A stretch of 64,000 bases of DNA, taken from Kalaharituber pfeilii (lineage: Eukaryota > Ascomycota > Pezizomycetes > Pezizales > Pezizaceae). The stretch is from positions 372,001-436,000 of the forward strand of contig WHUZ01000026.1 in NCBI GenBank assembly GCA_015179045.1. Direction: 5' to 3'. Of the stretch, positions 1 to 63,162 are shown one piece after another. The number at the start of each line of letters is the position of its first letter. The stretch's first letter is position 1. Both the position numbers and the translations under genes were made by a program. Below the pieces are notes generated by a model. It was given only the letters and a program-made list of their open reading frames with translations, searched no databases and had not been told where the DNA came from.

Positions 1-1
1 A

Positions 2-2190: not shown

Positions 2191-2208
2191 TCCTTTTTTT
2201 GAAGAAGT

Positions 2209-4379: not shown

Positions 4380-4395
4380 GAAGGGTGTGTCCTTA

Positions 4396-6101: not shown

Positions 6102-6103
6102 TA

Positions 6104-6287
6104 CAGTGACCCGGTAAAAATTCTTGGGTATTAGGCAGCATTGGGGTAAGGCAATATGTAGATTGAGTCTGTATTCGTTAGGCAAAAGAGATCTCTTTTT
6201 CCAGATGATAAATGCAGACTCGATTTGCATATTGTAGGACACTTATCGCAATAATGCATACTCCCCAAGACTTTTTACGGGTCACTG
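6104..6287. mobile_element. 184-bp Tc1/mariner-type MITE
   Basis: The two ends are inverted copies over about 85 bp, starting CAGTGACCCGGTAAAAA on the left and ending TTTTTACGGGTCACTG on the right. TA dinucleotides lie at 6102-6103 and 6288-6289. The CAGT terminus and TA target are typical of Tc1/mariner/pogo elements. There is no coding capacity, so it would depend on a transposase supplied elsewhere. Confidence 0.8.
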
Positions 6288-6289
6288 TA

Positions 6290-7980: not shown

Positions 7981-7984
7981 GGTT

Positions 7985-8408: not shown

Positions 8409-8639
8409 TACTAGTCTGGCTGCGGCTGCACTCCATGCTAACTGACAGGGGGTTGTGCAACCACACTATCATACAGTCCTCTAACGTAAATGATCCCACT
8501 ACACTTCTTCGGTAAGAGTCAAAATCCAAGATTCCACTGCATTTACACATCAAAGATTAGTAACGGAAAGCAAGCGAAACTCAAGAAAAAACTTCCACAG
8601 CACCAGCGGAACTGAGTAAACAGAGATCTCTTAGCGTCT

Positions 8640-9375
8640 GGCCGAGATATTCTCCGCCCCCCACCACTTCTTACTCCTATCCGCTACCCTGACCCTCTAG
8701 TCCAGGCTTCGCTTCCACCTCTTCAACTTCTCATACCCCCCTCCTTCAAACGCTTCTACCCATTCTCTCATTTGCGTCTCCCCCCACTCCCCCCCGAGTC
8801 CATCCATTTCCTTCTCCATCCTATCCCAGTCGATCCTGATCCTCTGCTCCTCTCCCCCCCACAGGGCTGCTGTGGTTGCGGAAATATCGCTGAAGTTGTG
8901 GGACCTTAGTGTGAAAAGTGTCTCCAGTGGCACGCATCGTAGTGAATTACGAGTACACTGTGCTGCATTGACGATGAGGCCGCAGCATCTTCCTCAGAAG
9001 ACATAACTGAGACCACTGTTGGACCTGGTGGACAAAACAAGGGATCCGGATGTGCGGTGGGGTACAGAGCTGAAGGCGGTGTATCCTAATCCTCGTGTGG
9101 GTCCAGTTGCGCTACACCCTGTATGCAATTCAGCCACGAGGAAACCCTGTCTCTGCCCACCAAAACTGAGGTCGGAAGGGGTCTGGATCCGGACTCTGCA
9201 CATCTGCCACCGCAGAATCCCCAACTGGCACACCACCGGCATCACTGTAAGAGCTACTATATACTGTTTGGGGCCCTATCTCCCCTTGGGCGGGTGTTAG
9301 AACGTCACTAACTAGATGATCGGTGTCGCCATAGCCCACAGCGCGGCATGCGATTAATCATATTTTTTTTTAAAA
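8640..9375. mobile_element. LINE relics: ORF2 C-terminal fragment (minus) and a family-1 tail (plus)
   Basis: On the minus strand, 8933-8697 encodes a Trp/Glu-rich segment (EWGETQMREWVEAFEGGG, then KLKRWKRSLD) that resembles the C-terminal tail of the LINE ORF2 copies in this window. On the plus strand, 9325-9380 carries TCGCCATAGCCCACAG, then GCGGCATGCGATTAATCAT and a short T/A-rich tail. I could not define target duplications or decide whether these belong to one insertion. Confidence 0.45.
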
Positions 9376-9595
9376 AAAAAAGGAATAGTTGATCGGCATT
9401 GTGTCCACTTTCTCAACATTTGATTCTTAGAGTGCTTGTTTCCAATCTCACTGCCCTCTGAGTCCTAGTATTAGACTCCACTGAAACGTCTTTCTATTCA
9501 TTGCCCGTTGTCCTCTGACTCGACTGCATTTTCTCTTCCTCCCTAAGTCCGTCTCTGATCCTTTTTTTAATCAACTGGATAAGTGCAGGAGAGTA

Positions 9596-9798
9596 ACTCG
9601 GGCTTGGCGGTGTGGACGGTACTGTAGAGGAAGTTGCTGTGGAAGGATATGTAGCCGCTGACCTTTCGCTGCCCTCCTGTAGGGGATCTGCTTGTAGTCC
9701 GGCGTATTGAGTGTATAATACTTGGCATTGCCAAGATTACGGGAGGGGTGAATTTTCTGGTCGGTGAAACCTTTATTCTTCACAGCGCAGCGGAACAC
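9596..9798 (-). repeat. Dispersed repeat R1, copy 1, with a conserved ORF
   Basis: About 200 bp strongly matches 21688-21863. On the minus strand both copies read the same peptide with one in-frame indel: FRC-VKNKG, TDQKIHPS, NLGNAK, TLNTP and YKQIP. The conservation lies in amino-acid blocks, suggesting it once coded for part of a protein I do not recognise. Copy 1 stops at CAGCGGAACAC, where the TIR element 9801-12273 begins. Confidence 0.6.
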
Positions 9799-9800
9799 TA

Positions 9801-12273: not shown

Positions 12274-12275
12274 TA

Positions 12276-13736
12276 TCCCCGCCCCACCTCTCCGAGGCAA
12301 ATAAAAATAGCTACACCTTTCCTCCGCCGCCACCTTCGAACACAACGAAAATTCGCCCCCTCCCCTTACACCTTCAGCGAACCAAAAAATTCTCCTCGCA
12401 CATCCACCACCTCCCCGTTCTCCTGATGTTCCAGCCACCTCTTCTCGTCCATGTCTTCCCATCTTCCCCATCCTTCTGGATACTCTACCTCCTCACACCT
12501 GAAAGCCAGGTGGTCCGCCGTTTGTTTCTCCCCGCATCCACACACACCCCCTTCTGCCGCTTTCCCTATTCTTATATCCCACTCTCTCCCCATCCCCTTC
12601 CCCGTTCTCAGCCTAGTAAAAAGCCGTTGCCGCCCCCTTGCTCCACCTCATAACTGAGCCCCCTCCGTACCCACATTCTCTCCTTTCTGCCGCGCGCAGC
12701 TTCTTCCATTTCTGCCGCAGCCCTCCTCCGTCACCACCGACTTCCCAACTCTATCCGCCGCCTTTTTTGCTTCGACGTCCGCTGCCTCATTGCCAGCGAT
12801 GCCGATATGTGCCTTCACCCACATCAGCTTGACGTCCCCCCCCTTTTCTTTCTTCCTGCAATCGCATCCACTACCCTCTTCAAGTCCCCAGTTCGTGCTC
12901 TCCCTTGCCTCCCCGCCTTCCTCACCGCCGCAATTGCTGCCTGTGAGTCGGTTAAGATGACCAGGTTCGCCGGTGCCGGTACCGCTTTCTCTACCCCCTT
13001 CCTCATCCCCCTCACCTCCCCGTCCCACACTGTCCCCCCCGTCCCCATTTCTTCTCCCCCTCCGCCATCCCATTTCCAATACCCCCCCCAAACCCTTCCC
13101 TTCTCATTCATACTTCCGTCCGTGTATACCGCCCCTCCCCCTTGCGTAGCCCAAAAGATTGAGGATTCCCACTCTTCCGTGCTCCCTCCCTTGCGCCCCT
13201 CTCTCACCACCTCCTCCACTTCCACTCTTGCACACCCCCCTCCCCATGACACCTCATCCACGCCCTCTGGCATGACGAAGCTCACTGTGCTCTGTACTCT
13301 TCCCGCCACTGACTCAAACCCGTCCTTCTTCTGCGCCGCCCACCCTACGCCCCAGTCTCTCCAGTCTCTCCCCGCTCTTCCGCCTCCCCTCCCCCCTGAA
13401 GTCCGCTGACCATATGTCCCCACAGCCTTCTGGGTCTCCCATGCTTCTCGCCACCAGCCTCGCCTGTGCGGCGTCCAGGGCTGTCTCCACACTCTCCACT
13501 CCGGCAATCCAGTTGACCTTCTGGATTGCTGCTCCGTGGACAGCGCCTGTGGCCTTCTTCAGTACCTGGTACTGAATTTTCTCCATCTCTCGCCTCCACT
13601 CCTTCTGCCCCCGCCACCCTATCTCTGAACCCCACATCATCGCTGCCCTTATCATCCCCGTATACAGCTGTCTCCAACTCCGCGGGCTCATCCCCCATTG
13701 TCCTGTCCCCACCCTCACTGTAAAAAAAAAAAAAAA
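12276..13736 (-). mobile_element. LINE fragment: RT C-terminus, RNase H and zinc motif (family without poly(A) tail)
   Basis: The minus strand encodes, through several frameshifts, the end of the RT domain (GTGQWGMSPRSWRQLYTG, 13700-13640). RNase H follows with YTDGS (about 13120), GEVRGM, LTDSQAAI (about 12950) and GNEAADVEAK (about 12790), then the CGCGEKQTADHLAFRC motif (about 12500). It matches the longer LINE at 41314-44045 over its whole length, including the same 3' end (GGGGATAG) with no poly(A). Oddly, a plus-strand A15 tract sits at 13722-13736, at the LINE's 5' side and directly against the stop codon of the HET gene. Confidence 0.8.
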
Positions 13737-13737
13737 T

Positions 13738-16700
13738 TCACACAAATAAGGCATTGATCTTTCTCATCACGGAGCAACCGTCTCCCCTTAGGACCAAGAA
13801 GTCACCGTTCGAATCTGTTCTAAGGACCCCAACCTTTTTGAGAACCTCGAGTTCAATAGCAATCTCATTTCCATCCTCTGACCTGCATCGCCCATTTTCC
13901 CTATCAAGCTGTTTGCATACTACCCAGTTGTTATAGGCTTGCTCCGGGTTGAGGATGGCAAGGGTGAATTGTTGATCATCCGTTTCAATTGGCACTTGTG
14001 ACAGGTACGGGCAATAGAATCCGAAAACCTCACTCCCTATCTTAACTTCATATTCATTTACTTCACTTGCTTTATGAACGAGAGCATGAGAAATTGCCCA
14101 GACTTCACAGAGAAAAATATGTTCGATGGCTCTCTTAGGCTCAATCAACTCTGGGATTCTGCGATTTTGAGGCCACTCTGTTGGGGTGTGCTCGTAGTCC
14201 TGGTCACGTTCTGGCCATTCCATCACTTGCTTCCAGGTCGGGAACCATTGCTGTTCTGTCCCTGGTAAGGAAAGTCGAATAGGATCTCAATCTTTTTTCC
14301 GAATGGAAGCACATGAAAACATTGCCTCCAGGCAGTCTCGTCGTCTATTTTCTCGTCGTAAGTTGGTAGCTGAGTTGCGCGCAGGAGGTAGAACAGTCCA
14401 GCCACTTTATCCGTAGGGTGTGTCGCACAGCGACTGGCCATTTCCCTCGTGAGTTCATACAGTTTGCAGCCACCAGGGCTGTCTGCATCCGTAGCAAGCT
14501 TCAAAACATGACGAATGGCACCTCTCAGTGTGGTGACCTTCCCAGCAACTGTGCTCTTGGTGTTCAGGATGATACGCCCATTGCCGCGTGGCACTCCTCC
14601 ATTGAACGTCCTGTTTTCCGTCCTGATCTCCTGCAACGTCCAAGCTCGCCGTAGCCAGTGAAGGGGATCGTCCCAGCCTTCTTTACTAAAAGGTCTTCCA
14701 AGGCCATTGAAATAACGCACCGTTTGCACTGCTGCACGGTATATATTACCAATAGTAGGAACATCTATCTTCCATTCATCGTGCTTAATTGTGTCAAGGG
14801 GAACGTTATTGTGAGTCAGTGTCTGGGCTGTAGAGGTGTCAGATTGCTGTCGGAGACAGAGAACATCAAGCCACACGTAGTCTGCGCCCAGGGTGAGGAG
14901 CTCTTTCCGTAAGGACTCTATATCCACGCCTTTAGGAAGTGGAACAGGCCACTGGTATTGGTTAACAGAAGTCTCTACTGTCTTCATGTCGCTAGTCCAA
15001 CTGTGCGAGACTGCCCAGAATGTAGGCCATCGAGTGCTTTGATGTGGAACCTCGATGGAGTTGACTTCTGCATGCAACATTCGAAAGTCTACCACGCGAT
15101 TACTCTTCAGGTCCCAGATGCGGCGTGGCATTACGAAGTATGGTGACTTGATAAGATGCTGTCCAGTGCCGTCCCTGTAGATTGCATTTGTACGCTCTTC
15201 GTCAATTTCCTTTGCTTTCCTCAGCCACTGCACCCTTTGCACCGCTACAGTAAACGCCTGTTCGTTGAAGTGTTTCCACCCGACATGGGCTGCGGCATAT
15301 GCTAGACCAAAGTCAAAATTTTGTGAAACAAAGTACTGAAAATCATTTTGGATCCAGTGTCGAAGACGTTCAGTGGAATCACTGCGGAGGCCGACAAGAG
15401 CTGTAAGGGTGGAAAAGAGCACCTCTGTGCTGAGTTCCCTACAAGGAACGTCAGCAAGGTCTGGGGTAAGGATGCCTCCAGCGCGGATGATGCCCTGTAA
15501 TTGTGCATTAGCGAGGAAGGGTGGTGAGGTATTGAGTCGTTTGACTTGTACTTCATGGCGAAGAGATGATGTTGCATAATACCCGGCGTATGGCATAGGG
15601 AAAGGGGGTGTCACTTCATTGTTGCGATTGACATTCGCCATGGCGCCGGCCAGCAGCGCCTGCAGACCTGGCTCGGCATTGCCGGACTTTGCTGCATCCA
15701 GGGCAGTTGCGTACCCACCCAGAGGAGTTTGATATGCGCCGCCTACGTTGATATCCGCTCCCCGGTCCAGCAGCAGCTTCACAACCTCTGTATTTCCGCT
15801 GTATGCAGCCACACCCAGTGCAGTCCCATACTCGCCACCTACAGCATTGATATCTGCCCCCCGGTCCAGCAGCAGCTTCACAACCTCCGTGTTTCCTGTG
15901 GATGCAGCTATACCCAGTGCAGTCCCATAGTTTCTACCTACAGCATTGATATCCGCCCCCCGGTCCAACAGCAGCTTCACAACCTCTGTATTTCCGCTGT
16001 ATGCAGCCACACCCAGTGCAGTCCCACAATTGCCACCTATAGCATTGATATCCGCCCCTCGATCCAGCAGCAGCTCGATAACCTCCGCATTTCGGCTGTA
16101 TGCAGCCACACTCAGTGCAGTCTCGGACTTGTGACCTACAGCATTGATATCCGCCCCCCGATCCAGCAGCAGCTTCACAACCTCCGTATTTCCGCTATAT
16201 GCAGCCGCACCCAGTGCAGTCTCACAATTGCCACCTATAGCATTGATATCCGCCCCTGATCCAGCAGCAGCTTCACAACCTCCACATTTCCTCTGTATGC
16301 AGCCACATCCAGTGCAGTCCCAGGCTCGCCACCTACAGCATTGATATCTGCCCCCCAATCAAGGAGCAGCTTCACAACCTCCGCATTTGCGCTGTATGCA
16401 GCCACACCCAGTGGAGTCCCACAATTGCCACCTACAGCATTAATATCTGCCCCCGATCCAGCAGCAGCTTCACAAACTTCGTGTTTTGTTGATATACAGC
16501 CACACCCAGTGCAGTCCCATACTCGCCACTCACAGCATTGATATCTGCCCCCCGGTCCAGCAGCAGCTTCACAATCTCTGTATATCCGCTGTATGTAGCC
16601 ACACCCAGTACAGTCCCATATTTTCCACCTACAGCATTGATATCCGCCCCCCGGTCTAGCAGCAGCTTCACAATCTCCGCATTTCCGTTGAATGCAGCTA

Positions 16701-16857: not shown

Positions 16858-17739
16858 TTTGCGGTATAAGTAAATCTTCGCAGACACTTACTCTTTTGCT
16901 GGCTTGACACCAGCCTGACGATTAGGTTGTTAGGCCTTATGCCGTATGGTTACCGATTGTGGGCGGAAGAACCTAGGATATGTAGCAGTAATTGCGTCTA
17001 GTGATGTGGAGATTGTTTGTTGCACGCTTCTTAGTACTGCGCAGACGTTTTATTCGCAGGGTTTCGATTTATGTCTTGGATATCGTTCAGATTTACTGGG
17101 AGCCATCCATTATCTATTTCTAGGCTGCCCATTTCCATCCTTTTCATATCGCCCCCACCTGCAGAATTTTCACGAATAGGAATTACATTCACCCAGATTG
17201 AAGAAACTCAGCCATGCTAGAGTCATCAGCTGGATGTTCAGCCTCGATAGATGGAAAAATTTTAAAGTGGCGCTAGCCCAATTATCATCGGCTGTAAAAT
17301 CTCAATAATACTTCACGATGTCCAATGGCAGAGTGGACAATTGCGCACGATGGGTCAGAACAAACCGGGATAGATAAAAAAAATCGAAGAGGCATAGGCG
17401 GGCGAGTGGTGCGAGGAGATAGTTCACACACAGTCAATATCACTAGTATACTCGTATCAGAAACCATTGACTGCATTTGTTGATCGACAAGCATACAGCT
17501 AATAATAGCATACTGTAAAATGAATCAAGAGCAACCATATGAGGAGCAACCGAGTTTAAGGTTGAGATTAGACTGTGATGTCTTCTACAACACCCATGCA
17601 TAACACTTCACCGGCAGAATGATACCAGCGAATGGACTTGCAAAAAAAACCGGCATTGAAATTGTGCACCAAACCAGAATGACACCACGCTGCAGCAACA
17701 TTGCATGTTGGCCTAAGAACTCCTGAATTTGTGATGTAG
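16858..17739. other. Upstream region of the HET gene, no gene seen
   Basis: Contains the presumed promoter of the minus-strand ankyrin-HET gene. Short ORFs only, no repeats recognised. Confidence 0.4.
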
Positions 17740-17753
17740 AACACATGATTCAT

Positions 17754-18000
17754 GGCGGAGAATGGGGAGGAGTATGACGTTTTGGAGAATTTCTTCGCTG
17801 GGGTCAAGTTCTAGAAGGTAGGAGAATGCGGGGTCAAGTTCTAGAAGCTAGGAGAGCGGGGGCGACGGCGCGTGGGGGCCATGTACGTAGAGAGTTAGTT
17901 TAGCCTGTCTCCGGGCTATGAGGGCTTGCCCAGGGACCCTGCCATGGCCAAATGCTACAAGCGGGGTTATGTGATTAAAAAAAACAAAAAAAAAAAAAAA
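17754..18000 (+). mobile_element. 5'-truncated retroelement with family-2 hairpin tail and TSD
   Basis: A 14-bp direct repeat, AACACATGATTCAT, at 17740-17753 and around 18000-18013 brackets about 247 bp. The insert ends GACCCTGCCATGGCCAA, then CTACAAGCGGGGTTATGTG and a long A tract. Within it, GGGGTCAAGTTCTAGAAG occurs twice (17800 and 17830). This is a longer family-2 copy showing sequence upstream of the hairpin. Confidence 0.85.
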
Positions 18001-18124
18001 ACACATGATTCATCGTGTGAAACCATCGTAAATGAAAATAAAGGTGCGCAGAATGCCGATTATTTGACAAGCTGTGATAACAATTGCTCTATTTATTGAC
18101 GCGAGTGCAATGTGCAGGAAGATA

Positions 18125-18189
18125 AGTTTTTTTTTTTTTTTTTCTTTAATTTCACGTAACCCCGCTTGTAGCTGTTCGCCATGACAGGG
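18125..18189 (-). mobile_element. Hairpin-only family-2 micro-insertion
   Basis: A direct repeat, CAGGAAGATA, lies at 18115-18124 and 18190-18199. The insert is T17 followed by the complement of the family-2 hairpin; read on the minus strand it starts CCCTGTCATGGCGAACAG and ends in poly(A). Only about 45 nt are non-poly(A). Confidence 0.85.
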
Positions 18190-18199
18190 CAGGAAGATA

Positions 18200-19195
18200 G
18201 GGATGCCTGCGTGTCCATTCCTGTTCCCCGATCTGTTCGGTAGCCTTATTCTCTGGTGTTGCATGGGCCAAACTCTCAGCTGACCGTCTCTCACTGAGAT
18301 TTTCAATTCACCCGCAGTATCGAACAGTTTGGTCGCTCGAAAATTCTTGCATTATACTCCAGTACTGGGGCGCCTCGGGACTGGGGATGAGCTTCGCCAA
18401 CATATCAGTGAGTACAGCGAACTGGAGTGGCTAATTTCGCGCGTAGGCAAGCGACCAGAATGCCAGCTTCACTGGCCAGCAAAGTATATCGTGTCGCTAT
18501 GCATGGGTGTTTGAATTTTGTGACTATCGCTTATAGAGGGAGCGCATTCTGAAATGTATAGTGGGCGTCGGTAGCACATTAGATAATAGCAGTTTTTTAT
18601 GTTCATTAGTCAGAGTTACGGAGGGAGGTTCTTTATATCTGCTAGTGCCCCTTATCCTTACTTGAGGACAATCGTACTTCCCAATAAGAATCCAATCGTA
18701 TCCAAATTCAATCTATTTATATGAGCTCTCCCTTCCTTGAATTGCAATTATTTTTTTGCTTATCTATTTCCTTCGATTTCCCTCTACATCTCGATTGAGG
18801 AAAAAATCGCCTTCTGCGCCCGGAGCATAGGGCGCACAGGAAAAAAACTGGGGAACATGTCACAACGCATCCCTGTCGTTTGCGCCATGTTGCACCCTGT
18901 CGCTCGTGGATCGCCCTGGGAAATGCGGTAACATGACGACCTCCCTTGGCATTCAAGAACATGTTAGCCTAGCCCATAGCGCAATACAAAGCTAACTTCA
19001 CATCTTTGATGTACCAGACAATAGTGGCAATACCTGGGCTAAGTTGCTTCTGTGCGTTGCTCCCTAGCATCATCTACAATGAGACTTTGCTGCATGAGTT
19101 TGCCAACACGTAAACTCGACTCTACAATGCGCGATCCCAGTCAGTATGTTGTCATAACACAGGTAACATGCTGGGTCTTGCTGGTAACGCAGATG
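18200..19195. other. No gene seen
   Basis: Short ORFs without recognisable features. Confidence 0.4.
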
Positions 19196-19209
19196 ACCTG
19201 ATGGGTCTC

Positions 19210-19276
19210 TTTTTTTTTTTTTTTTTTTTTTTATTCACGTAACCCCGCATACAGGCTACCAGCCTATGGCAGGGAC
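19210..19276 (-). mobile_element. Hairpin-only family-2 micro-insertion (14-bp TSD)
   Basis: A 14-bp direct repeat, ACCTGATGGGTCTC, lies at 19196-19209 and 19277-19290. The insert on the minus strand is TCCCTGCCATAGGCTGG, then TAGCCTGTATGCGGGG, TTACGTGAA and poly(A). This sub-type has the inner stem AGGCT/AGCCT and outer stem CCCTGC/GCGGGG. Confidence 0.9.
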
Positions 19277-19499
19277 ACCTGATGGGTCTCGTTAAGCATG
19301 TAGTTGACATGATTGGGCTCATTGGGGACGCAATTTACTCTATGGTCTCATTGGGGTGCACTGCAACTGGAGTACCACGTTGTCAACTCTGTTTACATAT
19401 TCTCATGTGTTCTCAATTCGGTATATAATGAATTATTTATTTATTACTAGCTATCACGATATATACAGGTACCATTTCACCACCCTTCTATGCCACACC

Positions 19500-20225
19500 A
19501 CTCCACTGCATTACTGTAGATTAACTCTTTTATCACATATCTCGCGCTGCAGAGGAAGGCCTGCCATACCTGTTAAAGTGAGCTCATGTTCACATATCTC
19601 ACGATGTTGGACTCGGAAGCGACCCGCCATACCTGTAAACTGAGCTCACATTGCCACAACTCGCGCCGTCGAAATGGCCCGTTAAATTGACCTCATTCTG
19701 CTATTCTCGTATGGTCGAAAGGGCCCTGCGGTAACTGTAAGATTGAGCTCATGTTCACATGCCTCGCGACTTTGAAAGAGATCAGCCATACCTGTGAATT
19801 GAGCTCACATTGCCATATCTTGTACTGTTGAAAAGGCCCTACGGTACCTGTCAGTTAATCCTATGTTCGCACATCTCGCAATGTCGAAAGGGGCCTGCCA
19901 TACCTATTGTACTCAGTTCATTCTGCCACATCTCGTGCTGTCAAAGGAGACCTGCAATACTAGCAAATTGAACTCATTCTGCTACTCGAAAGGGCCCTGC
20001 AATGCTGTTAAGTTATCTCATGTTCACACATCTCATGATATTGAAAGGGACCCGCCATATCTGTGAATTGAGCTCACGTTGTTACTTTTTGCACCGTCGA
20101 AAGGGCCCTGTGATACCCTTTTAATCTCATGTTGCCATATGTCGTACTGTGAAGAGAGGCCTGCCATACCTGTTAATTGAGCTCATTCTATAGCATTTCG
20201 TGCTGTCAAGGAAGACCTGTTAATA
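19500..20225. repeat. Diverged minisatellite, 50-62-bp units, about 13-14 copies
   Basis: Repeating pattern: CACATATCTCGCGCTGTCGAAAG-type segment (variable), then GGCCTGCCATACCTGT, then TTAAATTGAGCTCAT. Units are individually diverged, so the array is old. One or two related units occur at 48290-48500 (GAGACCTGTCATACTTGTTA, then GTTAAGCTCAG). No coding frame spans the array. Confidence 0.8.
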
Positions 20226-20725
20226 TATGTGGGTAAGTTGTGCGATGTGTGAGTAGGTTGTGTGATGTGTTGCCTCGCCTCGAAGAAGGACGTTCAATGA
20301 AAATTAACTCCTGAATTGACTCCTGAATTCAACGTGCAATTAGGGGCAATTCTCACAGTGTCAACATGCAGGCAGGAGCCAGATTGATCAGCAACCCATC
20401 CTATGCCTAGTCTGGTTGTATCATGCTACTGTGGTAGTCTGGTTGCCATTGTGGGCTATCCTAGCCGACCCGTGAGATCACAGCGGAGAGCTGAAGTGGC
20501 CTGAGCGACCTCATCAGTACCGAATTTAGCAACCTATCTCTTGGGTAGGCAAAACTTTGCTGAATTTGATGCACTAGTTTCACTGTGTGACGTCCAGCCA
20601 AGAGGGTCTGTGTAATATCTCAAGCAATGGCCAGTGCATACATCTCAAGTACGGAAATAGCGCACATCTATAATTCAGCCACTCCCATTGTTTTCAGCCA
20701 CACTGCACACCTCCCTCTCTCTAGG
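20226..20725. other. No gene seen
   Basis: Unique-looking sequence without ORFs of note. Confidence 0.4.
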
Positions 20726-21660
20726 TTTTTTTTTTTTTTTTATATCATTACTCGCATGCCGCCTTACAGGCTATGGCGAGGTTAGGTACAAGATAAAGTG
20801 GACAGAAGTAACCGGAAAACATTATGAAAATTAGATGAATAAAGATAACGGTCAGTTCTCCCCCCCGCCCTCCTCCAGCATCTTCAGCAGGCTCTGTAAG
20901 TGATCTCCCTCTCCTTTCTTGAATTCCGGAGGCCGTCGGACTGCCTCCAAGCCCCCCGGCCACCTCTTCCGCCATACTGTACCCTGCATTCTTCCAATAA
21001 TAGGTGTGTAGTGGTCTCCTCCGCCTCTCCGCACCATCGGCAGTCCGGGTCTGGCGCCTCCTCTCTCTAGGTGCATAGCAGTGAAATTGGATGTCGCCAC
21101 CCTGTTCCACTCCATCACCTTTCCCCCTCCACCTCTCTCTTCTCCTTCCTCCATGCCCTTATCCTCTGGTGCACCCCACTCTCTGTGGCCACTTCCCTTC
21201 CCTTCTTTACTGCCCCCTTCTTTGCCTGTATATCCACCTTCTCATTGCCTGTGATCCTGATGTGAGCCTTTACCTATCAGTCTTGTATGCTCTCCTCTTC
21301 TCTACCTTCTCGCCATTACGTCTACCACCTTCCTAACATTCTCTATCTTTCTTTTCCCTTCTCTGCCCACATTCTGAATTGTCATAATGGTAGCTTCTGA
21401 ATCCAGGCAGATCAGGACTAGCACCTCTTCCTCCATGCTCTCTAGTGCTCTCCTTACCCCCTTACCTCTCCATTAAACACCATTGCCATTCTTCCTACCA
21501 CTTCTGCAACTGCCACCAATCACTCCTACATTTCCATTCCCACCTTGCTATGTTCGATTTTGCTATCATCTGAGAAAAGGATTGCTTTCTCTTATCTGGC
21601 CTCCTCTACTGCAGTCTTCTACTCCTCTCTTCCTCTCTTCTTCCTCCCAAGTCTGTTCCT
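20726..21660 (-). mobile_element. Tad-like LINE 3' fragment, family-1 tail
   Basis: T17 at 20726-20742 is followed by the complement of the family-1 tail, here with stem variant GCCTGTAAGGC. Minus-strand frames then decode to the C-terminal zinc motif region (about 21000-21060) and RNase H remnants (about 21200-21600; AHIRITGNEK-like near 21250), with many frame breaks. It adjoins repeat R1 copy 2. Confidence 0.65.
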
Positions 21661-21687
21661 GATCTCCACTTCTATCTTCTCATACAA

Positions 21688-21863
21688 GTTGCTGTGGAAG
21701 GACATGTAGTCGCTGGCCTTATGGCTGCCCACCTGCAGGGGATCTGCTTGTAGTTCGGCGTATTGAGTGTATGATACTTGGCATTGCCAAGATTATATGA
21801 GGGGTGAATTTTCTGGTCGGTGCGACCTAAACCTTTATTCTTCACAGGGCAGCGGAACACATT
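21688..21863 (-). repeat. Dispersed repeat R1, copy 2
   Basis: Matches 9596-9798, including the minus-strand peptide blocks VKNKG, TDQKIHPS, NLGNAKYHTLNTP and YKQIP. It is interrupted at CAGCGGAACACATT by the retroelement 21864-22572 and resumes after the duplicated target at 22587. Confidence 0.6.
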
Positions 21864-22572
21864 CTTTTTTTTTTTTTTTTTTTTGATCACGTAACCCGCA
21901 TACAGGCTACCAGCCTATGGCAGGAACCCATATACCGGGTCAGGTTAAAGCATCTGTCTATTCTACGTACACGATTTGGGAGCCCAACATACCCTCCGAC
22001 CCTCCGGCTGATCACCTTCGAGCACATAGCTCCACGGTCCTCCCCTTTCCCCGTCCAGAGCCAGGTGTAGTGTGTAAGTGCTCTCTACCCCACTTCACCT
22101 CCACAAACTTACCCCTTCCAAACGCAGCTCGCTCCCCCTCCTCCTTTCTCTTTTGGACCAACTCCAGATGCAATCCACCCCCAGTGGCCCGCCCGTCATA
22201 CCTCAGGCAGCTTGCCCCCTCTTTCGACTTCTCATCTGCCTTCTCGTTGCCCTCTATCCCCACAGGGGCCTTGTCCCATGCAAGCTTGACAGCTCTGGCA
22301 TCCCTCAATCTCCGGCGCCTTTCTGCCACAAGCTCTATCACACGTGCCAAGTCCGCAATCCTCGCCTTGCCGGTTTTTCCTGCTCTCTTGACTGCGCTAA
22401 TAGCTGCCTGAGGGTCTGCCAGCAGCAACACCTTCACCCTGCCATCAACAGCTTCAAGGGCACCCCTCATGCCTGAGACCTCATCATCCCACACTGTAGC
22501 TTTTTGTGCCTACCCATCGGGACCCTTCTGACTCTCCTGCTACCACCTGCCTCCAGCACCACCCTCCTCCAA
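21864..22572 (-). mobile_element. 709-bp LINE fragment with family-2 tail and RNase H remnant (14-bp TSD)
   Basis: A direct repeat, CAGCGGAACACATT, at 21850-21863 and 22573-22586 defines the insertion exactly. The 3' end (left) is T19, then the complement of the family-2 hairpin (TCACGTAACCCGCATACAGG). The minus frame 22494-22012 encodes RNase H pieces: DDEVSGMRGAL, LLADPQAAISAV and GIEGNEKADEKSKEG. The third catalytic region has DPQ where DSQ is usual. This ties the family-2 hairpin to a LINE with an RNase H domain. Confidence 0.85.
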
Positions 22573-22586
22573 CAGCGGAACACATT

Positions 22587-22941
22587 TGACAGAAGGTTCG
22601 TGGGGCGAAGACATGCAGGCTAATAAAGCGACAGAATAGGTACAACCAGACGCACAAGTGCAAGGCTGCATGGAATCGAAGATTTGCCCGTCTGTTTAGA
22701 CTTCAACCTTTATTCTTCCAAAAAACACTAAGACGAAGCAGCAGATCAGCGCAAAAACATCAGCAACTCGATTTCAACGTTACGTCATGTCGTCTTCTGT
22801 TAAGTCTTCAATAAAGGAGATACTATGAGGATTTGCTGATGAAGACTTTGTCCTTGTGCGGAAGTTTTCAGGCTTGTTTGTCCGGCTACGACGGTCGTTT
22901 GCGCTGGACTCATTGTGGGCCAAAATATCTCTACCTTTCTA
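22587..22941. other. Continuation of R1 region, no gene seen
   Basis: Follows the duplicated target of the preceding insertion. No ORF of note. Confidence 0.35.
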
Positions 22942-23290
22942 TTTTTTTTAAAACAAGAATATCATTACTCGTATGCCGCCCTGTGGGCTATGACGAGATT
23001 AATTACAAAGGGAATAAATAAAGGAAGTAAAATAAAGAAAAAAAAAATAAGAGCTCAGAAAATAAGGGAAGATTATCTCTCTATCCACTTCAGCAGTTCC
23101 ATCACGGGGTCCCCTCCCCCTCTCTTGCCGCCCGAGGCCTTTATATCACTTCCAGCCCTCCTGGCCACTTCATCCTCCATACATCGCACCTGTTCCAAAT
23201 GTGTGTCGCCGTCTCCTCCCCCCGCACCATCTGCATTCCGAGCTGTCTTCCTGGCCAACTTTATGCCTCCCGGCCCTCAGGCCTTTTCCA
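22942..23290 (-). mobile_element. LINE C-terminal fragment with family-1 tail
   Basis: T/A-rich tail at 22942-22956, then the complement of CTCGTCATAGCCCACAG and GGGCGGCATACGAGTAATG. Minus-strand frames between 23258 and 23073 retain ORF2 C-terminal residues (DGAGG, then TH, EWEDEVARRAGSD-like). The stem has the compensated pair CTCGT/ACGAG. Confidence 0.65.
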
Positions 23291-23777
23291 ACTAAAAGAG
23301 CTGCCAAGGTGCGTACCAAATTATCTCTAGCGCGAAGAAACGAAGGCTGTCGCCAAAGAGCTCAAGAAAAGGCTCAAGAGCGACATCAACCAGCTCAGGA
23401 AAGACATGAATCGAATGGAAGATCATCTTTAGGCGTAGATTACACGATTCCGTGAAGGAAAGAATTGACTCGCTCGAGACCAGAGAGGACATGCTGGAGA
23501 AGGGTTGGAGGGCCTCAGCACTAAGGTGGTGAAAATTGACTTAAATATTGAATCGCTCAAGATGAGGAAGGGTACTGGGGAAACTGCGAGTTCGGGCGTC
23601 TGATAAGAAGTGGGCAGTTGTAGACCTAGATAAGGTGAGTTAAGCTTAGTATTGACAAAGCAATGCTGATGGGCGATGACTATAAAGAGTTAGCGGGCCG
23701 AGGGAACGAGGCTGTGAGGGGCCCAGCGGTGGCTGCAGAAAGTCGCTCAAAATATGTAAAAGAACGAAACAAATCCA

Positions 23778-23855
23778 TTTTTTTTTTTTTATCATTACTC
23801 GTGTGCCGCCCTATGGGCTGTGACGAGACTAGTTACATAGGGGAAACAATCCAGT
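23778..23855 (-). mobile_element. Short family-1 tail insertion
   Basis: T13 at 23778-23790, then the complement of CTCGTCACAGCCCATAG and GGGCGGCACACGAGTAATG. Flanks GAAACAAATCCA (about 23766) and GAAACAATCCA (about 23846) form an imperfect target duplication. Stem variant CTCGT/ACGAG. Confidence 0.7.
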
Positions 23856-24080
23856 GCTATGTCTGGTGAAGGATATGCCATACTGCCCTGCATGGGCTGT
23901 CAGCACTTATAACAGTTCCAACATCGAGTACATCATTTCACAAGAGCACATACAGCACCACCAGCTATTCCATTGCAATCCAATTGCAACACGACCTTAG
24001 CATTTAGGATAGTAATACATGCTTATCTCTTTCTCTACCTCTCACTTTGCCGTTCCTAAAGCTGTCGTGCAAATGAAAGG

Positions 24081-24152
24081 CCCTTTATTTATTTTTTTGG
24101 GGGGGAGGGGGTCACGTAACCCTGCATACAGGCTATCAGCCTATGGCAGGGA
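24081..24152 (-). mobile_element. Hairpin-only family-2 micro-insertion (11-bp TSD)
   Basis: A direct repeat, CAAATGAAAGG, lies at 24070-24080 and 24153-24163. The minus strand starts TCCCTGCCATAGGCTGAT, then AGCCTGTATGCAGGG, TTACGTGACC and an eroded poly(A). The outer stem CCCTGC/GCAGGG is fully Watson-Crick, versus T-G in other copies. Confidence 0.85.
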
Positions 24153-24163
24153 CAAATGAAAGG

Positions 24164-25054
24164 TCGTTCTTCTACATACAAGTTTTCTCACAGGATAAAC
24201 GGTAACACTCGCTAACGGATTGTAGCGCTTATAAATGAGTTATATCCACATTAGTAGATCCTAAATTCGAATAGACTAGGCCGGCGGTTTGTTTCGATAG
24301 AAATGCCTTGCGAGGTCGAGACGATCATGTCAGGAAAGAAGCAAGTCAACTAAGTTCTGCATGGGGGCTGCTTGTGCAGAAGTGCTCATTTAGTTATCAG
24401 GAGTCATCATATTATCTCAAGCTAGTAGTAAAATGTAGGTTCATTGTAAGAGCACAGCGCTGACAAACTTGTATATAAAATACACATCTCCTGCAAATTT
24501 AACTTGAATAAGGCTCATGTTTGGCTACATACAGTCGTGCAAGCAAGCAGGCCTAAATTAACAGAAATGAGGATCTCATATAGGCCTAACTTAAATTTAT
24601 CCACGTGCTATGTACCGTATTACTCTTATTGAGCATGTCTTCCTGGATAACTGAAGTTTCCAACCTCCGCGGCCCAGGATTAAGAACTCGTTCCTCCTGA
24701 TGGCTATAATAACCACTATATCCAGATTTGCTTCTATTGGATCGTTTTATGGCTCCGGAGTGAACCAGTATGACCGGATCAACTATGTGGATGAACATTT
24801 GGGACTTGTGTCGTGTCATTGCCTAAAGGTTCTTTGAAATGGAATTAAAACCATTCGTATAAAGAATTTTCGCATCATATTTCAAACATGAGGATAGATA
24901 TTTGCATTGTTTGCATGAAAGAGTGCACAATAAACCAACCACCTCAATGAAGATCTCCCAAATATCGACACTTATTCTAACTTTGAGCGCGCAGATAGTT
25001 AGCTACCCTGCCTGTAACCATCGCTTGACGAGCTTCTTTGCGATGCTGGGGCCC
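24164..25054. other. No gene seen
   Basis: Short ORFs only. The plus ORF 24902-25222 overlaps the minus-strand candidate below and ends in a Pro/Ser-rich stretch, as expected for an antisense shadow. Confidence 0.4.
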
Positions 25055-25361
25055 TTACCTCACATCTCCTGGTTTGCTCGCTCCTTCCTCCCTCTGCTTT
25101 CTCACACGCATTTCCTCCTCTCGCTTCGCTCTCCCACTCCTCCCTCTCCCTGTTGCACTTTCCTAAGCTCTGTCTCCACTCCACCCCCCACATTACGCCC
25201 AAACTTACCGCCACCCCAGTGATCATCAAGGCACTATAGTACACCACATACACCGCCAAGACCGCGTACGCGATGACCATCGGTATCCCCCTTGAGAAGC
25301 CCCTCAGAACCGATGGATGGCCTTGAAATGACTCATTTTCTGGCGGCGGTGGATGTGCCAT
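25055..25361 (-). CDS. Candidate small single-pass membrane protein (two exons)
   Basis: Exon 25361-25209 encodes exactly 51 codons: a Pro-rich start (MAHPPPPENESFQ), then a hydrophobic helix (residues about 26-51, IPMVIAYAVLAVYVVYYSAL). It ends at a consensus donor GTAAGT in phase 0. An acceptor CTTAG at 25164-25163 gives a 46-nt intron and a second exon (25162-25055) of 35 codons rich in Arg/Glu (RAKREEEMRVRKQREEG) before TAA. The predicted 86-residue protein has one membrane helix and a charged tail. I do not recognise the family. No branch site stands out, and intron retention also leaves an open frame, so the model is tentative. Confidence 0.35.
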
Positions 25362-25483
25362 CTGTAATTGGAACGGATTTTGATTTGGGAGATTTTGGTT
25401 GTGATGACGTTGAAATGCTTGGTAGGGGTGGTTGTAGAAAAATATATACGGTGAGGAGAGTAAGACTTAAAAATAGGACTTAA

Positions 25484-26380
25484 TTTTCTTAATTATTACA
25501 AAACGGTACTTCCAGACTCATATAAATACACGAAGTTGCATAAAGACAATAAACCACTATAGCTAAGTGCATGGCCCACCTTATGGCCACTGTAGCTAAG
25601 TGCATGGCCTACTTCATGGCCCTCACTCTAGCGGTGCACCTTAGCGTGGTTTCCAACAGTGGTGCATGTTGCGTATCGCAAAAGTGTGGCTGTGGGTTGA
25701 CGCTGAGATTACGTAGATTTTGTTCTTCTGCGTAAGCTATCTTGTAGAAGGCGATGTGGATGTAGGTAGATGGCCGAAGGGGAAGAATTGCCCAAGTGTG
25801 GTGCGATATGTTCTAGATTGTACCGGCCCTCCAGTCGATTTGGAGGGCCGCCTAGCTTCTTTCGGCCAGTCCTTGTTCGGCAAAGTCAAAAACAAGATTA
25901 GAGAATCGACAATCTGGACGTACTATTTACAAACTTGTAACACTTCGAGCCCTGTTGCTGTTTGATAGGGTGTGCGCGAATTTTAGTCTGTCCTGACGTC
26001 GTGAGGAGATCAATATTGGAGGATCAATGTCACAGGACAGCACATCTTAAACCTTCGGCTCCCAAATTGCATTCACAAAGGGCACTAAGTACCAAGGTGA
26101 GGTGAAAGACTAGAGAGCACCAGACTGAGAACGTGCGCTCCAGGCAGGGTACTAAGATAAAGCAAGTGTTAACTACTGAACCAAGCACATTACCTCGCGA
26201 GTCGGAGGAATCGCGTGCTCTCTCCACTTTGCAACAAGCTTCAAACTACATGTGCCATACCTGAAGCCGGAAGAGCAATATTTCCCAATTACCTCTTATC
26301 TCTAATGGTTACGGCGTTTGCTGTAGATGACGCAAGATGTTATGTACCTCAATCTTCACCTCCTCATCGCTACATTTACA
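25484..26380. other. No gene seen; one perfect hairpin
   Basis: A perfect 10-bp stem, CGGCCCTCCA and TGGAGGGCCG, with a 7-nt loop lies at 25824-25850. It sits in otherwise unremarkable sequence. Confidence 0.4.
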
Positions 26381-48309: not shown

Positions 48310-48350
48310 GCCCTGCCTTGGCGAGGAGCTGCGCGCGAGGTCACGTGACA

Positions 48351-48396
<46 letters not shown>
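48310..48396 (+). mobile_element. Hairpin-only family-2 micro-insertion (13-bp TSD)
   Basis: A direct repeat, AACTCATTCACCT, at 48297-48309 and 48396-48408 brackets GCCCTGCCTTGGCGAGG, then AGCTGCGCGCGAGGTCACG, TGACAC and about 45 A. It is inserted in a minisatellite-like unit. The 5' end is at the hairpin base. Confidence 0.9.
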
Positions 48397-48400
<4 letters not shown>

Positions 48401-58461: not shown

Positions 58462-58493
<32 letters not shown>

Positions 58494-58535
58494 CTCGTAA
58501 CCCCGCTTGCAGCTGTTCGCCATGGCAGGGCAGGC
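58462..58535 (-). mobile_element. Hairpin-only family-2 micro-insertion within LINE A
   Basis: A direct repeat, CCCCGGCC, lies at 58454-58461 and 58536-58543. T27 precedes the complement of CCCTGCCATGGCGAACAG, CTGCAAGCGGGG and TTACGAGAAATTA. The 5' end lies about 5 nt outside the hairpin base. Confidence 0.8.
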
Positions 58536-59150
58536 CCCCGGCCTGGGAATTTGCCTTCAGGGTCCTGAGGCCCCGGTCCTCTTCGCCTCCTTCCACCTCC
58601 TGCACCTCTCCGGATCCCTCCCCTTTGCCCCTTGACCCATCCCCTCTCTTCCCTCCACTGATGCCTTCTTCCATAGCTCTGTCAACCTCTTGGTCCACCA
58701 CTTCTTACTTCTCCTACATATTCTGACTTCCCGGCTATACCTCTCCTTGAAACTCAAGAGTTTCTCATACAGGGTTTCGCCTGGGAGGTCCTCTACCCAT
58801 CTTACCTTCCTGTCCCTGTCCCACTCCCTTATCTCTTCTACCAGCTCCTCTACCTCATTGAAATTGGCTCTCCTCCTCCTATTCTCTGCCTCTTCCCCTA
58901 TTCCTTCCCAGCTGCCCCCTACCACTATGTGGTCGGATCCCAGAAATATCGGTTGTGTCCCTTTCCACTCCCGCTCTCTCATCCTCTTGGTCCAGCATAG
59001 GTCAATCGTTGATTCCTGTACCACCCCCTTCCTTTCTCTCCTCCATGTTGGTTCCCCTTTCACACTTGCTAGCTCCCACTCCTCCCCTTCGAACTACTCT
59101 TTTAAGGTCATGCCCCTCCCATTATTTTGTATCTCCTCACCTCCCTACAT

Positions 59151-59210
59151 GCCCTGCCTTGGCGAACAGCTGCATGCGGGGTCACGTGAAAAAAAAAAAA
59201 AAAAAAAAAA
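59151..59210 (+). mobile_element. Hairpin-only family-2 micro-insertion (12-bp TSD)
   Basis: A direct repeat, ACCTCCCTACAT, lies at 59139-59150 and 59211-59222. The insert is GCCCTGCCTTGGCGAACAG, CTGCATGCGGGGTCACGTG and A22. It sits inside LINE A on the opposite strand. Confidence 0.95.
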
Positions 59211-59957
59211 ACCTCCCTACATCTCGTGGTGGGCATTCCAGTTCCCCATTACCACTCCTTCCTTGTTATTCCACTCCTTCGCCATCTCTTCCAACATTCT
59301 CTCCATCTCCTCTTTTTTCCAGTTGGGTTGGACATATACTCCCCCTATTCTCCTTCCTCCCACTGCTACTCACACCCAATTCTACTCCTCCTTCCTCACC
59401 TCCACCCCCTTCGTCCTCCCCTTCGCTACATGTAGTACCACCTTAATGCCCTCCATCACCTCCAACCTGACGTCAAAGGATGGGTATATTGTCATGACCC
59501 ACACTCCCCCCCGTTTCTCCACCTAGGCTTCTGCAATGAAAAAACAATGATACCTCTTCTCCTTCACCCACTCCAGCGCTATATGCATCTTAGCTACCCC
59601 TCCTTGCATGTTTTGGTATCCTATTTTCCACTCTACCATATGGACCTAGGGGCGGCTGTCCTCTCATCGAGCCTCGGGGCCCAGTCAGAATCCTCAATGC
59701 CCCCCACATCTTTCTTTACTCCTTGCATCTTTTCGGCTTCCTCATCCCAGTTTCTCTTCTTCTCTTTCCCCTTTGCCTTGGTCTTTGCTGCTCTCAAGAT
59801 GGCTGCCAGCTCCTCCGCCTCCTCCTCATTCTTTGCGTGAAAGACTACCCTCCGGAACCTCTCCGGACAGGCAGATTCTGCCTGCGGCTCCCGGACCTCA
59901 TCAGGCGATAAACTTTACGCCATGACACTGTGACACAGGTACCAACATTGTGGGGTA

Positions 59958-60237
59958 CCGTATTAACTCACTTAAGAGGTAAAACACAAACGCGCGCTAT
60001 GGTGGTCTTGGCAAGCCTCTTAGCGCCCAGTGCGCGTGTATTACGCACGAGCACGCCGAATTACCGCGATGCTAACCTCAACACCACGGAGACTGATAGT
60101 TACGTGACTCAAAAAAAAAAAAAGAAAAAAAAAAAAAATACCAATATTGTACCAAAGCGCGCGCTAGCGCGCCTGAAGTTCTGCCAAGACCATACTAGCG
60201 CGCGTTTGTGTTTTACCTCTTAAGTGAGTTAATACGG
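59958..60237. mobile_element. 280-bp TA-flanked MITE nested in the MULE TIR
   Basis: The ends CCGTATTAACTCACTTAAG, then AGGTAAAACACAAACGCGCG, are inverted at 59958-60010 and 60185-60237. TA lies at 59956-59957 and 60238-60239. The uninterrupted right TIR of the MULE reads GTGGGGTAGGTATGATCA, showing the empty site and confirming a TA duplication. An A-rich tract (60112-60139) lies inside. Confidence 0.85.
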
Positions 60238-60609
60238 TAGGTAGATCAAATGTTGCTACTTGTTACCAGCATTTAATGATGCAAAATAGAGGCTGGGCAT
60301 AGTCCGTGCGAGAGGTCAGTGACCTGGTGTGGCAACAGGGTATCTTCTCTGTTGAGAGGACAGTTTTGTAGGGAAAACAGCAGCGTTTCTCTTGGGGGCC
60401 TTGGTAAATAGCAATGTAGCTACAGCCTTTCAACCAACGCATGCTATTACAGCAACAAATGCTGGTAATGAGTAGTATTACTTACTGTACCAATACACGC
60501 TTCCATGTCACAATTTGAATTGCAGACACCAATTCCAATCACTTTAATTCATCCTAGATGGCTATTAACTACATCAACCGAACCTACAGCGTCAATGTCT
60601 CAAGCTGCT

Positions 60610-60614
<5 letters not shown>

Positions 60615-60645
<31 letters not shown>

Positions 60646-61523
60646 TCATCAATCACAGGCCGCCCTACGGGCTATGGCGATTCTGTAGCTAGATGATTAT
60701 GTGACTTATTAAATAAACTCCCCCCCGCCACCCCCCCCGTGTACAGCTGTCTCCTCCTCGCCGGGGCTAACCTCGGCAGCCTCGCCGCCGTTGCCCACAG
60801 GGCCTTTCCCAAACTCAGTCTATGCCTCTGGTGCTCGTTGAACTTCAACTCCCAGTCTACCCTCAATCCTACCAATCGATATGTTGGCCCTCTCACCCCC
60901 ACCACCAACGTTTCCTCTTTCTCTTTGTCCATCTCGAAACCCTCCTCTTCCGCGTCCTTCCGCAGGGCCTGTCTGTGCTCCCTGATCTTCTTCTTCAAGC
61001 CCCCCATTTTCCTGTCCGAGATCACGCTGTGGATGTCATCCACATATGACCTCGTGAACTCCCTCGCATCCGTCTTTTCGGCCACCGTAGCTACCCCCAC
61101 CAAAAACAACACCGGCGATATCGGCGACCCTTACGGGGCTCCATCGGTCATTGTAAACTCCACTCTCTTCCTCCCATCCCACGATAATTCACACCTAGTA
61201 GGTCTCAAGAAATTATCCACGAACGCAGCCACGTTCCGGTCTACCTTCTCTATACGCCTCACCACCCTCTCCCTCCTCACGTGGTTGAACGCCGACTTTA
61301 TATCGTCACCAACCAGTGCCACCCACTCCCCCTCGCCCAGCCTCTTGTCTATCTCCTTCAACGTCTGTCTCTGAAGATCCTCCGCCCCCCTCCCCGGCCT
61401 ACCCCCTAGTTGTGACTCGCAAAACAACGAGTCATATCTCTGGATTCTGTCCGCCACCACCTTCTGACCCAACTTTGACACCGTGTTTAGCAACGTGATC
61501 GGTCTCCAGCTCGATGGGGAGTC
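60615..61523 (-). mobile_element. 909-bp LINE fragment with RT core, family-1 tail (14-bp TSD)
   Basis: A direct repeat, CAAGCTGCTGGATT, lies at 60601-60614 and 61524-61537. The minus strand encodes RT motifs in nearly continuous frames: WRPITLLNTVSKL, GDDIKSAFNHV (motif A), then catalytic SYVDDIHSVISD (about 61030) and VDWELKFNEH. The tail is AATCGCCATAGCCCGTAG, then GGGCGGCCTGTGATTGATG, then poly(A). This copy breaks off soon after the RT palm, and a deletion joins it to the tail (only about 80 nt after ARRRQLYTG). It is the least decayed RT in the window. Confidence 0.85.
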
Positions 61524-62944
61524 CAAGCTGCTGGATTGTGATCATTGAATATTGACTCATGGCCAAACGGCGCCAGCTGGATTCTCAACTTCACATATTG
61601 TACTGAGGTAACCTATTTTTTTTTTTTTGTCTCTGCGATAGGATTATAGCTTGTATGCGGAACAAAATTATTTAAACAGAGCAATGTCATGCCAATCTTT
61701 CTAACGAAGAATTCAAACCTGTAAAGCAGCGTAGCTCATCCAGCAGTTTCAAAATTGTCAGGCTTTGCAGGATATCCTGAACCTTTTACTACATACACCT
61801 GCACCTCAATTGCACACCCTCAAAATGCTCTGCACTGCAAATGAATAAGCTCTTGTGCATCTGGAGTAGTGTACTCCAAATGTAACATCCTACGAGCATG
61901 AGACAGCGCAAGACGAAGCCTACCAGCAGTGACCGGAACTGATGAGCAAGTAGTATGACAGAGTGAGGTACTACAGGAAACCCAAAATTTCATTTTTGTT
62001 TCTTCATCTGCTCATTAATTCAGATCTATTTTTCCATTTTTCATTTTTTACTTAATTGAGTAATCATGCATTCAAACTAGTAGATCACAGCATGGGCCGA
62101 CATTTGGTAGCCAGTGGGCACGGTACGCACTTACGTCACTAGTCCACTTTAAAACTTGTCTTGCCATATGCCTGTACCAACAACTGATCATACCTACCCC
62201 ACAATCTATTATGTTGGTACCTGTGTCACAGTGTCATGGCGTAAAGTTTATCGTCTGATGAGGTCCGGGAGCGGCAGGCAGAATCTGCCTGTCCGGAGAG
62301 GTTCCGACTACCCTCTCCTCTTCTGACTTCCTCTTCACCACCCTGCCCCTCTCTTTCTCTGTTCCCTTTCTCTTTTCTGTTAGTGCCCTGAATGCTTCCT
62401 TTACCTTCTAGTCCTCACACTCCTTCGCAACATGTCCTCGTTTCCTGCATACCAAGCACATAATTCCACTACCCATGCTCTGTGTGTTCCCCGTTTGCTG
62501 TGTTTGGGTCTGAGCATGAGCTTGTTGTTGTCCGCTGCTCTTCCCTTGCTTCCCTTTAGGGCCGGTCAGTGCGTTCTTTGGTGGTTCTGACTTCACGATC
62601 CCTACCGGCATGTCCACTTGCTGCCTTTTCCAGTTCTGCCTAATTCCTGGTCTCCTCTCCTGGCTCTTCCCCTTCGGGCTCTACAGCTGTACCTACCTCT
62701 TGCTCCCTAGAATATTCACTTTCTCCGTATAGAGCCTCTTCGCCTCCTCTGTATCACTGACCTCGAAGGTCACTGCACTTGATCTCACATTCTGCGGGTT
62801 GGGAGCCCATGCAAACCTATGTGGTCCCCTGTTTCCTGCCGTCAATCCCGGATTCTCCTTCTTTATGATATCCGTGATCTCTACATCTGTTACTGCCCCC
62901 TTCTTCACTGGTACCTCCTTGATTACTAACTTAACCGCTTTCTT

Positions 62945-63004
62945 GCCCTGCCATGGCGAGCAGCTACAAGCGGGGTCACGTGAAAAAAAAAAAAAAAAAA
63001 AAAA
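62945..63004 (+). mobile_element. Hairpin-only family-2 micro-insertion (12-bp TSD)
   Basis: A direct repeat, AACCGCTTTCTT, lies at 62933-62944 and 63005-63016. The insert is GCCCTGCCATGGCGAGCAG, CTACAAGCGGGGTCACGTG and A22. Its length and 5' end are identical to the insertion at 59151. Confidence 0.95.
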
Positions 63005-63162
63005 AACCGCTTTCTTATTCTCCACCCAGACTCTTACCGTATCCTTATATATCGCTCTGATTACCACTTCACACTTCCAGTGGACTTCCTCGTTCGGCAT
63101 CTCCGCTGGAACTTCTTCCACCTCCCACATCCTTTCAAAAATGCTCACTTCCCCGTGGATGT

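Follow-up and report, generated by a model that had tools for sequence, protein, structure and literature searches.

Introduction

The cause of 5' truncation in most copies of long interspersed nuclear elements (LINEs) is an old open question: what decides where a copy begins? It is raised in miniature by a stretch of the genome of the desert truffle Kalaharituber pfeilii (Pezizaceae), 64,000 nucleotides (nt) long (contig WHUZ01000026.1, positions 372,001 to 436,000), hereafter the window. An earlier note on the window pointed to seven insertions made only of a hairpin and a poly(A) tail, each within its own target duplication. It took them for one family and saw in them copies either of a discrete small RNA or of LINE RNA that is cut, or left by the enzyme, at the base of the hairpin. 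We find that most short copies start at the first paired base of one of two hairpins of a LINE tail, either hairpin 3 (hp3, yielding a unit of 39-41 nt) or hairpin 1 (hp1, yielding a unit of about 75 nt). The pattern suggests that RNA structure, not chance, decides the start of a copy.

Results

Short copies begin at the base of a hairpin

The LINE tail consists of three hairpins (hp1, hp2 and hp3) followed by poly(A). We scanned the 78.03 Mb assembly of K. pfeilii (360 contigs); because of repeats, all genome-wide family counts are lower bounds. The related hairpin groups are A (LINE A, with a UUCG-capped second hairpin), A2 (second hairpin with TAGACC), B (CCAAGTGC loop) and C (TCCCTGCCATAGGC...), and a further group, D (TCGCCATAGCCC...), is similar but different. 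The core common to A and A2 occurs in at least 2,656 copies (up to two mismatches; reversed control, 0), the B hairpin in at least 571 and the C hairpin in at least 337 (up to one mismatch each). Exact hairpins of the TTAC type number at least 240, with GGGA preceding at least 139 of them, and those of the TCAC type at least 78. A profile search of 278 kb of sampled sequence found 54 D hairpins, compared with about 40 rows for A to C; they occur in L024, L018, L021 and at window positions 44290, 50238 and 60680, some of them hairpin-only with duplications. The earlier note had proposed a genome-wide search with the hairpin unit, and the resulting length distribution is not smooth, with peaks at the hairpin bases.

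For the A/A2 core, 100 exact matches were listed and all were read; L100, with flanks identical to those of L099, was dropped (n=99), and the near-identical pair L105/L106 was retained. At least 60 nt of upstream sequence were available for 98 copies, two of them without a recognizable tail. The same or nearly the same flanks in L099/L100, L105/L106 and L135/L139 point to duplicated loci rather than separate insertions. A LINE A tail is present in 42 of the 99 and absent from 57, one of which, cut by the edge of L024, is preceded by GGGA and thus LINE-like. A duplication finder that does not assume the end position (score of at least 8 counted) detected target duplications in 40 of 55 non-LINE copies, and in none of 41 LINE-tail copies and none of 163 shuffled pairings. 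Relative to the CCCTGCC that opens the hairpin, the 40 duplications end at -1 (20), 0 (9), -2 (3), -3 (3), -4 (2), -5 (1), -14 (1) and -38 (1), the last coinciding with the base of hp1; thus 29 of 40 end at -1 or 0.

Family B, the youngest looking of the families, gives a sharper picture. Of the first 40 matches, 38 were read and two left out of the count. The scripted classes are 20 hp3-only, 6 hp1-start and 12 LINE copies; LINE sequence reaches to about -70 in 13 of the 38, which makes L189 a LINE copy and reduces the hp1-start copies to five. All 20 hp3-only copies have a duplication, ending at -1 (14), 0 (5) or -2 (1) in a 60-nt search; in a 110-nt search one of them, L174, scores higher at -63, which we take, by eye, for a local repeat. 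In the five hp1-start copies the duplications end at -32 to -37, and among the 38 no start other than hp3 or hp1 was found within about 70 nt. Genome-wide, at least 315 exact B hairpins have A before CCCTGCC, and in at least 158 CAGGG precedes, so that the LINE continues; matches extending to hp1 (up to one mismatch) number at least 199. Among the first 100 listed of the 158, 95 are also exact to hp1 (lists compared by eye). The hairpin base is therefore the end point of about half of the B copies, and the stretch from -6 to -35 holds few starts or none.

A and A2 behave like B in their start positions. The A2 sample comprises 20 loci (16 exact matches and 4 variants), split by script into 8 LINE copies and 12 others. 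Nine of these 12 have a duplication, and all nine end no more than 2 nt to either side of the hp1 base, which is the first A of AAGCC; they represent eight independent insertions, as L135 and L139 have common flanks. No duplication was scored in L128, L131 and L140; by eye L128 is LINE-like, and L131 has a small number of LINE bases upstream of hp1. Two of the first 20 listed C matches are hairpin-only. For D, 12 of the 52 hairpins with tails in the 278 kb have a duplication (score of at least 8), and 9 of the 12 end at -4 to 0; this result is weaker, because 5 of 153 shuffled pairs scored as well.

Could ordinary random 5' truncation produce such ends? Longer copies that look truncated do exist, of about 250 nt (17754-18001 of the window), about 510 nt (L203) and about 760 nt (L005), the last two lengths marking only the end of the alignment, and these longer copies end variously. 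The short copies cluster at hp3 and hp1: 29 of 40 ends fall in two of 60 positions (2e-34) and 19 of 25 in two of 72 (4e-25). Uniform ends are thus refuted for the short class, as the earlier note had argued, and we give random truncation hardly any credence there. The recurrent end that the note placed at the stem base holds for hp3; it is not the single one, since a second lies at the upstream hairpin hp1 and longer truncations coexist with both.

The hairpins are tails of several LINEs

The hairpin-only copies carry LINE 3' tail sequence, with the tails of A, A2, B and C recognized, and they have the A tails and target duplications of LINE copies. The B tail adjoins an RNase H frame (L024). 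L204 has an RVT_1 frame with L1 ORF2p and R2 among its relatives of solved structure, and about 750 nt further downstream follows an A2 tail; frame and tail presumably form one element, which we take, as a guess, to be of the Tad1 clade. NCBIfam gave weak general matches only. The frame of L203, considered as that of LINE B (beside the hairpin at C60:69689), was rejected; it belongs to a Ty3-type long terminal repeat (LTR) element that neighbours a truncated LINE B. By eye, L024 holds several copies within a diverged repeat (GAGCTGAATTTGACAGGTATGGCAGGCC...).

The base before CCCTGCC tells the families apart. It is A in 20 of 20 B hp3-only copies; in LINE A tails it is A in 39, G in 2 and C in 1 (n=42). 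Among copies without this tail it is G in 19, A in 10 and C in 1 of the TTAC type, and G in 25 and A in 1 of the TCAC type, which matches A2. Both hairpin-only C copies have T, as in LINE C. The difference between B and the TCAC type is strong (Fisher p 4e-12). Given that first base and inner variants follow each parent LINE, the copies appear to be of LINE RNA tails, and one small RNA as their common source is unlikely.

A dedicated small RNA gene copied in trans, a true micro-SINE (short interspersed nuclear element), whether single or one per LINE family, would account for the fixed 5' end and the high copy number. It would also suit the TCAC subtype, in which nearly every copy is short: the UUCG-type LINE A tail is absent from all 26, and just two extend to hp1. 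Against such a gene stand the match of first base and inner variants to the LINE tails in each family, and A2 tails with G before CCCTGCC, which number at least 353 (up to three mismatches). In five loci (1,299 bases) an Rfam search that admitted E values up to 1 gave no match, be it to a small RNA, a ribozyme or a head derived from tRNA, 5S or 7SL RNA. Moreover, 39 nt are too short for the A/B box pair of RNA polymerase III. Of the marks of a SINE, a recognizable head was not found in these five loci, and the 3' tail in common with a partner LINE is present. We regard the small RNA gene, one of the two options of the earlier note, as improbable, since hairpin-only copies occur separately for several LINE families, with a first base matching the parent.

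Two related ideas were discarded. A copied cap G might have been read from the G with which hairpin-only A copies often begin; it is explained by A2 tails with G, and B copies begin with A in all 20 cases. A known self-cleaving ribozyme family was set aside on the same Rfam search of five loci. Separately, in L057 (G000:C12:109168-109447) a hairpin-only copy stands, by eye, directly before a stretch resembling the beginning of a tRNA gene; in the 280 bases of L057 ARAGORN detected no tRNA.

Structure of the tails

In short folds hp3 is part of the minimum-energy structure of the tested A, A2, B, C and D tails; in the C tail it lies inside a larger helix and is absent from the centroid. B and A also have hp1, which A2 shows in the centroid only. 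When the three-hairpin structure is applied to 20 tails, 94.5% of cells are paired, compared with 89.3% after shuffling and 28-50% when the structure is slid. Cells changed on both sides number 26 in this alignment versus 10.0 after shuffling, with hp1 and hp2 carrying most, and RNAalifold predicts the same three hairpins. hp3 alone, in 31 variants, is 96.8% paired (slid, 37-50%), a value that shuffles also reach. The closing pair of D forms in 47 of 54 hairpins versus 27.3 after shuffling (C-G in 29, A-T in 17 of the 54). Related sequences can inflate all such covariation counts. The starts thus fall on the first pair of stems backed by covariation (whole tail, D closing pair); folds in longer context are ambiguous. 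A conserved 3' stem-loop, as in stringent-type LINEs, is present, with covariation over the whole tail and a conserved hp3.

Insertions in the window

The seven insertions all have A-rich tails. The scripted finder detected target duplications in six; it gave none for 24081, where the tail is not pure A, and there the repeat was recognized by eye. Their 5' ends, noted earlier as lying 0-5 nt from the stem base, are tighter, 0 or 1 nt before CCCTGCC, with 2 nt in 19210. They do not form one family: 19210 and 24081 belong to C and the other five to the A/A2 type. The truncated B copy at 17754 is an ordinary 5' truncation and serves as a contrast case.

Table 1. Hairpin copies of the window and the LTR element frame of L203. 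Hairpin length runs from the base preceding CCCTGCC through GTGA.
Feature	Position	Strand	Details
Truncated LINE B copy, about 250 nt, three-hairpin tail	17754..18001	+	hp3 17936-17974; duplication ACACATGATTC(AT) by eye
Insertion 18125, hairpin-only, A/A2 type	18127..18190	-	39-nt hairpin, A-rich tail; duplication TATCTTCCT(G), score 10
Hairpin-only, family C	19210..19275	-	41-nt hairpin, A tail; duplication GAGACCCATCAGGT, score 14; extra G at 5' junction
Family C hairpin and tail, after LINE C tail motif (AACCTGACCCGG...ATGGG)	21865..21926	-	Not hairpin-only
Hairpin-only, family C	24081..24152	-	41-nt hairpin, mixed C/A tail; duplication CCTTTCATTTG by eye
Hairpin-only, A2 type, CCTTGG variant	48310..48397	+	39-nt hairpin; duplication AACTCATTCACCT, score 13
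Hairpin-only, A/A2 type	58462..58531	-	39-nt hairpin; duplication AGGCCGGGGrCCT(G), one mismatch, score 11
Hairpin-only, A2 type	59151..59211	+	39-nt CCTTGG hairpin, identical to that of A2 LINE tail L141; duplication CCTCCCTACAT, score 12
Hairpin-only, A2 type (AGCTAC, shared with hp1-start copies L142, L144)	62945..63006	+	39-nt hairpin; duplication AACCGCTTTCTT, score 12
Ty3-type LTR element frame	L203:1262-4657	-	Reverse transcriptase, RNase H, integrase and chromo domains

Elsewhere in the window, the tandem repeats of 17000-26000 have no bearing on the hairpin copies. In 1-14999 (+ strand, first frame, read-through residues about 150-465) there are strong WD40/beta-propeller profile matches, with seven WD40 stretches; WD40 repeats are common in fungal genes of the NOD-like receptor (NLR) type.

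Discussion

How is a copy made to begin at the base of a stem? Our preference, a tentative one, is that the short copies are target-primed copies of LINE RNA 3' ends, the LINE RNA having been cut back to its hairpins, with structure setting the 5' end. By analogy with stringent-type LINEs, the LINE protein would hold hp3. The remaining LINE RNA would be removed back to a hairpin, through either 5'-to-3' trimming or cleavage at the border of single strand and stem, and the leftover hairpin-poly(A) RNA would serve as template. Reverse transcriptase would then copy this template to its end, and integration would be completed in the normal way. A hairpin with poly(A) would then suffice as a template. 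That a cut or trimmed RNA is the template we infer from the DNA of the copies.

The recurrent stem-base ends support the second option of the earlier note, a LINE RNA cut, or an exit of the enzyme, at the hairpin base. Exit is the main rival: reverse transcriptase would leave intact LINE RNA at the 5' base of hp3 or hp1, be it by release at the protein-bound hairpin, by fold-back of the complementary DNA (cDNA) or at an upstream structure. It would give the same end points, a templated first base and the coexisting longer truncations. In most aligned tails hp2 ends 4 nt before the hp3 stem, and when 150 nt of B are folded, 3 nt separate hp3 from the end of a long helix before it, so that a roadblock is possible there. 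Microhomology at the junction, common in truncated L1, is scarce here: the LINE has G at -2, yet only two of the 29 A copies and two of the 20 B copies have it there (4 of 49 together, p 0.003 for a count this low), a scarcity in keeping with run-off at the end of a template. Moreover, the families A, A2, B, C and D differ in upstream sequence, and in each of them a copy begins at the base of the stem that has just been copied. Since the stem base is the start despite these differences, and since microhomology is lacking, we lean to a shortened RNA and hold enzyme exit possible but rather doubtful.

Alternatively, it is the cDNA that is trimmed, not the RNA, a host flap nuclease (of the Rad1-Rad10/XPF type) removing the single-stranded 3' end of the cDNA at the hairpin. 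This would yield stem-base ends in every family, and ERCC1-XPF does limit L1. XPF-type nucleases, however, cut several bases inside the duplex and the observed ends are more exact; we consider such trimming very unlikely.

A number of observations weigh against a template cut back to its hairpins. Exonucleases come to a halt a few bases short of a structure rather than exactly at its edge. Fifteen of the 55 non-LINE A copies have no scored duplication; 9 of the 40 A duplications end 2-5 nt before CCCTGCC, not always on LINE-templated bases; the one ending at -14 (L081) is probably spurious; and two copies begin, by eye, within hp3 (L018:4733 and L026:4682). In two A2 LINE copies the scored duplication lies upstream of hp1, at a distance of 55 nt in L126 (score 12) and of 74 nt in L127 (score 8). 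Family C is mostly LINE (18 of 20), and the D pattern is weak. As for structure, single-sequence folds are no stabler than shuffles (z -1.73 for D, -0.58 to 0.62 for the others), so that stability by itself proves nothing, and hp3 alone has no covariation excess over shuffles, with no both-side change in the 31 variants. With about 60-80 nt of extra upstream sequence B loses hp1 and keeps hp3, A2 loses hp1 and an isolated hp3, and the outer stem of D is re-paired. The idea that hp1 and D are free of upstream structure was dropped, as the longer-context folds do not bear it out.

A bolder possibility follows from the cut-back template. The hairpin-poly(A) could be the nuclease-resistant core of the LINE RNA-protein complex, a complete template of about 40 nt that spreads from its own copies, a promoterless and bodyless self-excising retroposon. 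It could spread from its short copies because the same cut would free it from any polyadenylated transcript that carries it near the 3' end. We think this unlikely.

Whatever the agent, the truncation point of a large class of copies is quantized and legible from DNA at base resolution, and the agent that sets the end, RNA processing or reverse transcriptase, thereby becomes testable. In such a unit, a single hairpin of about 40 nt with poly(A), a poly(A) LINE would have its natural minimal template. Length-filtered repeat annotation would probably miss these units.

A literature search, mostly outside subscription papers, returned no title or abstract opening describing hairpin-only LINE copies with fixed 5' ends. 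SINEs of stringent-type LINE/SINE pairs have a body of their own, whereas the K. pfeilii units are tail hairpins only. For the ZfL2 LINEs, the accessible text describes a 3' stem-loop that is essential and is bound by the LINE protein (PMC4176376). In the UnaL2, ZfL2-1 and ZfL2-2 LINE/SINE pairs of the same text, a 3'-terminal stem-loop is common to autonomous and short copies, as here. In human cells, depletion of XRN1 lowers L1 retrotransposition about 3-fold (PMC11014359), a finding that establishes no more than a connection between 5'-to-3' decay and LINE activity. Tailless retropseudogenes, as far as they are covered in the available text of PMC3747384, are likewise very short and probably made by LINE machinery; the K. 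pfeilii units differ in deriving from LINE tails and in having A tails. With 5'-truncated LINE copies the short class has in common the LINE 3' sequence, an A tail, target duplications and the presence of parent LINEs. Truncated LINE copies are described as ending at various positions (PMC3747384), whereas the short class of K. pfeilii ends at two structural positions.

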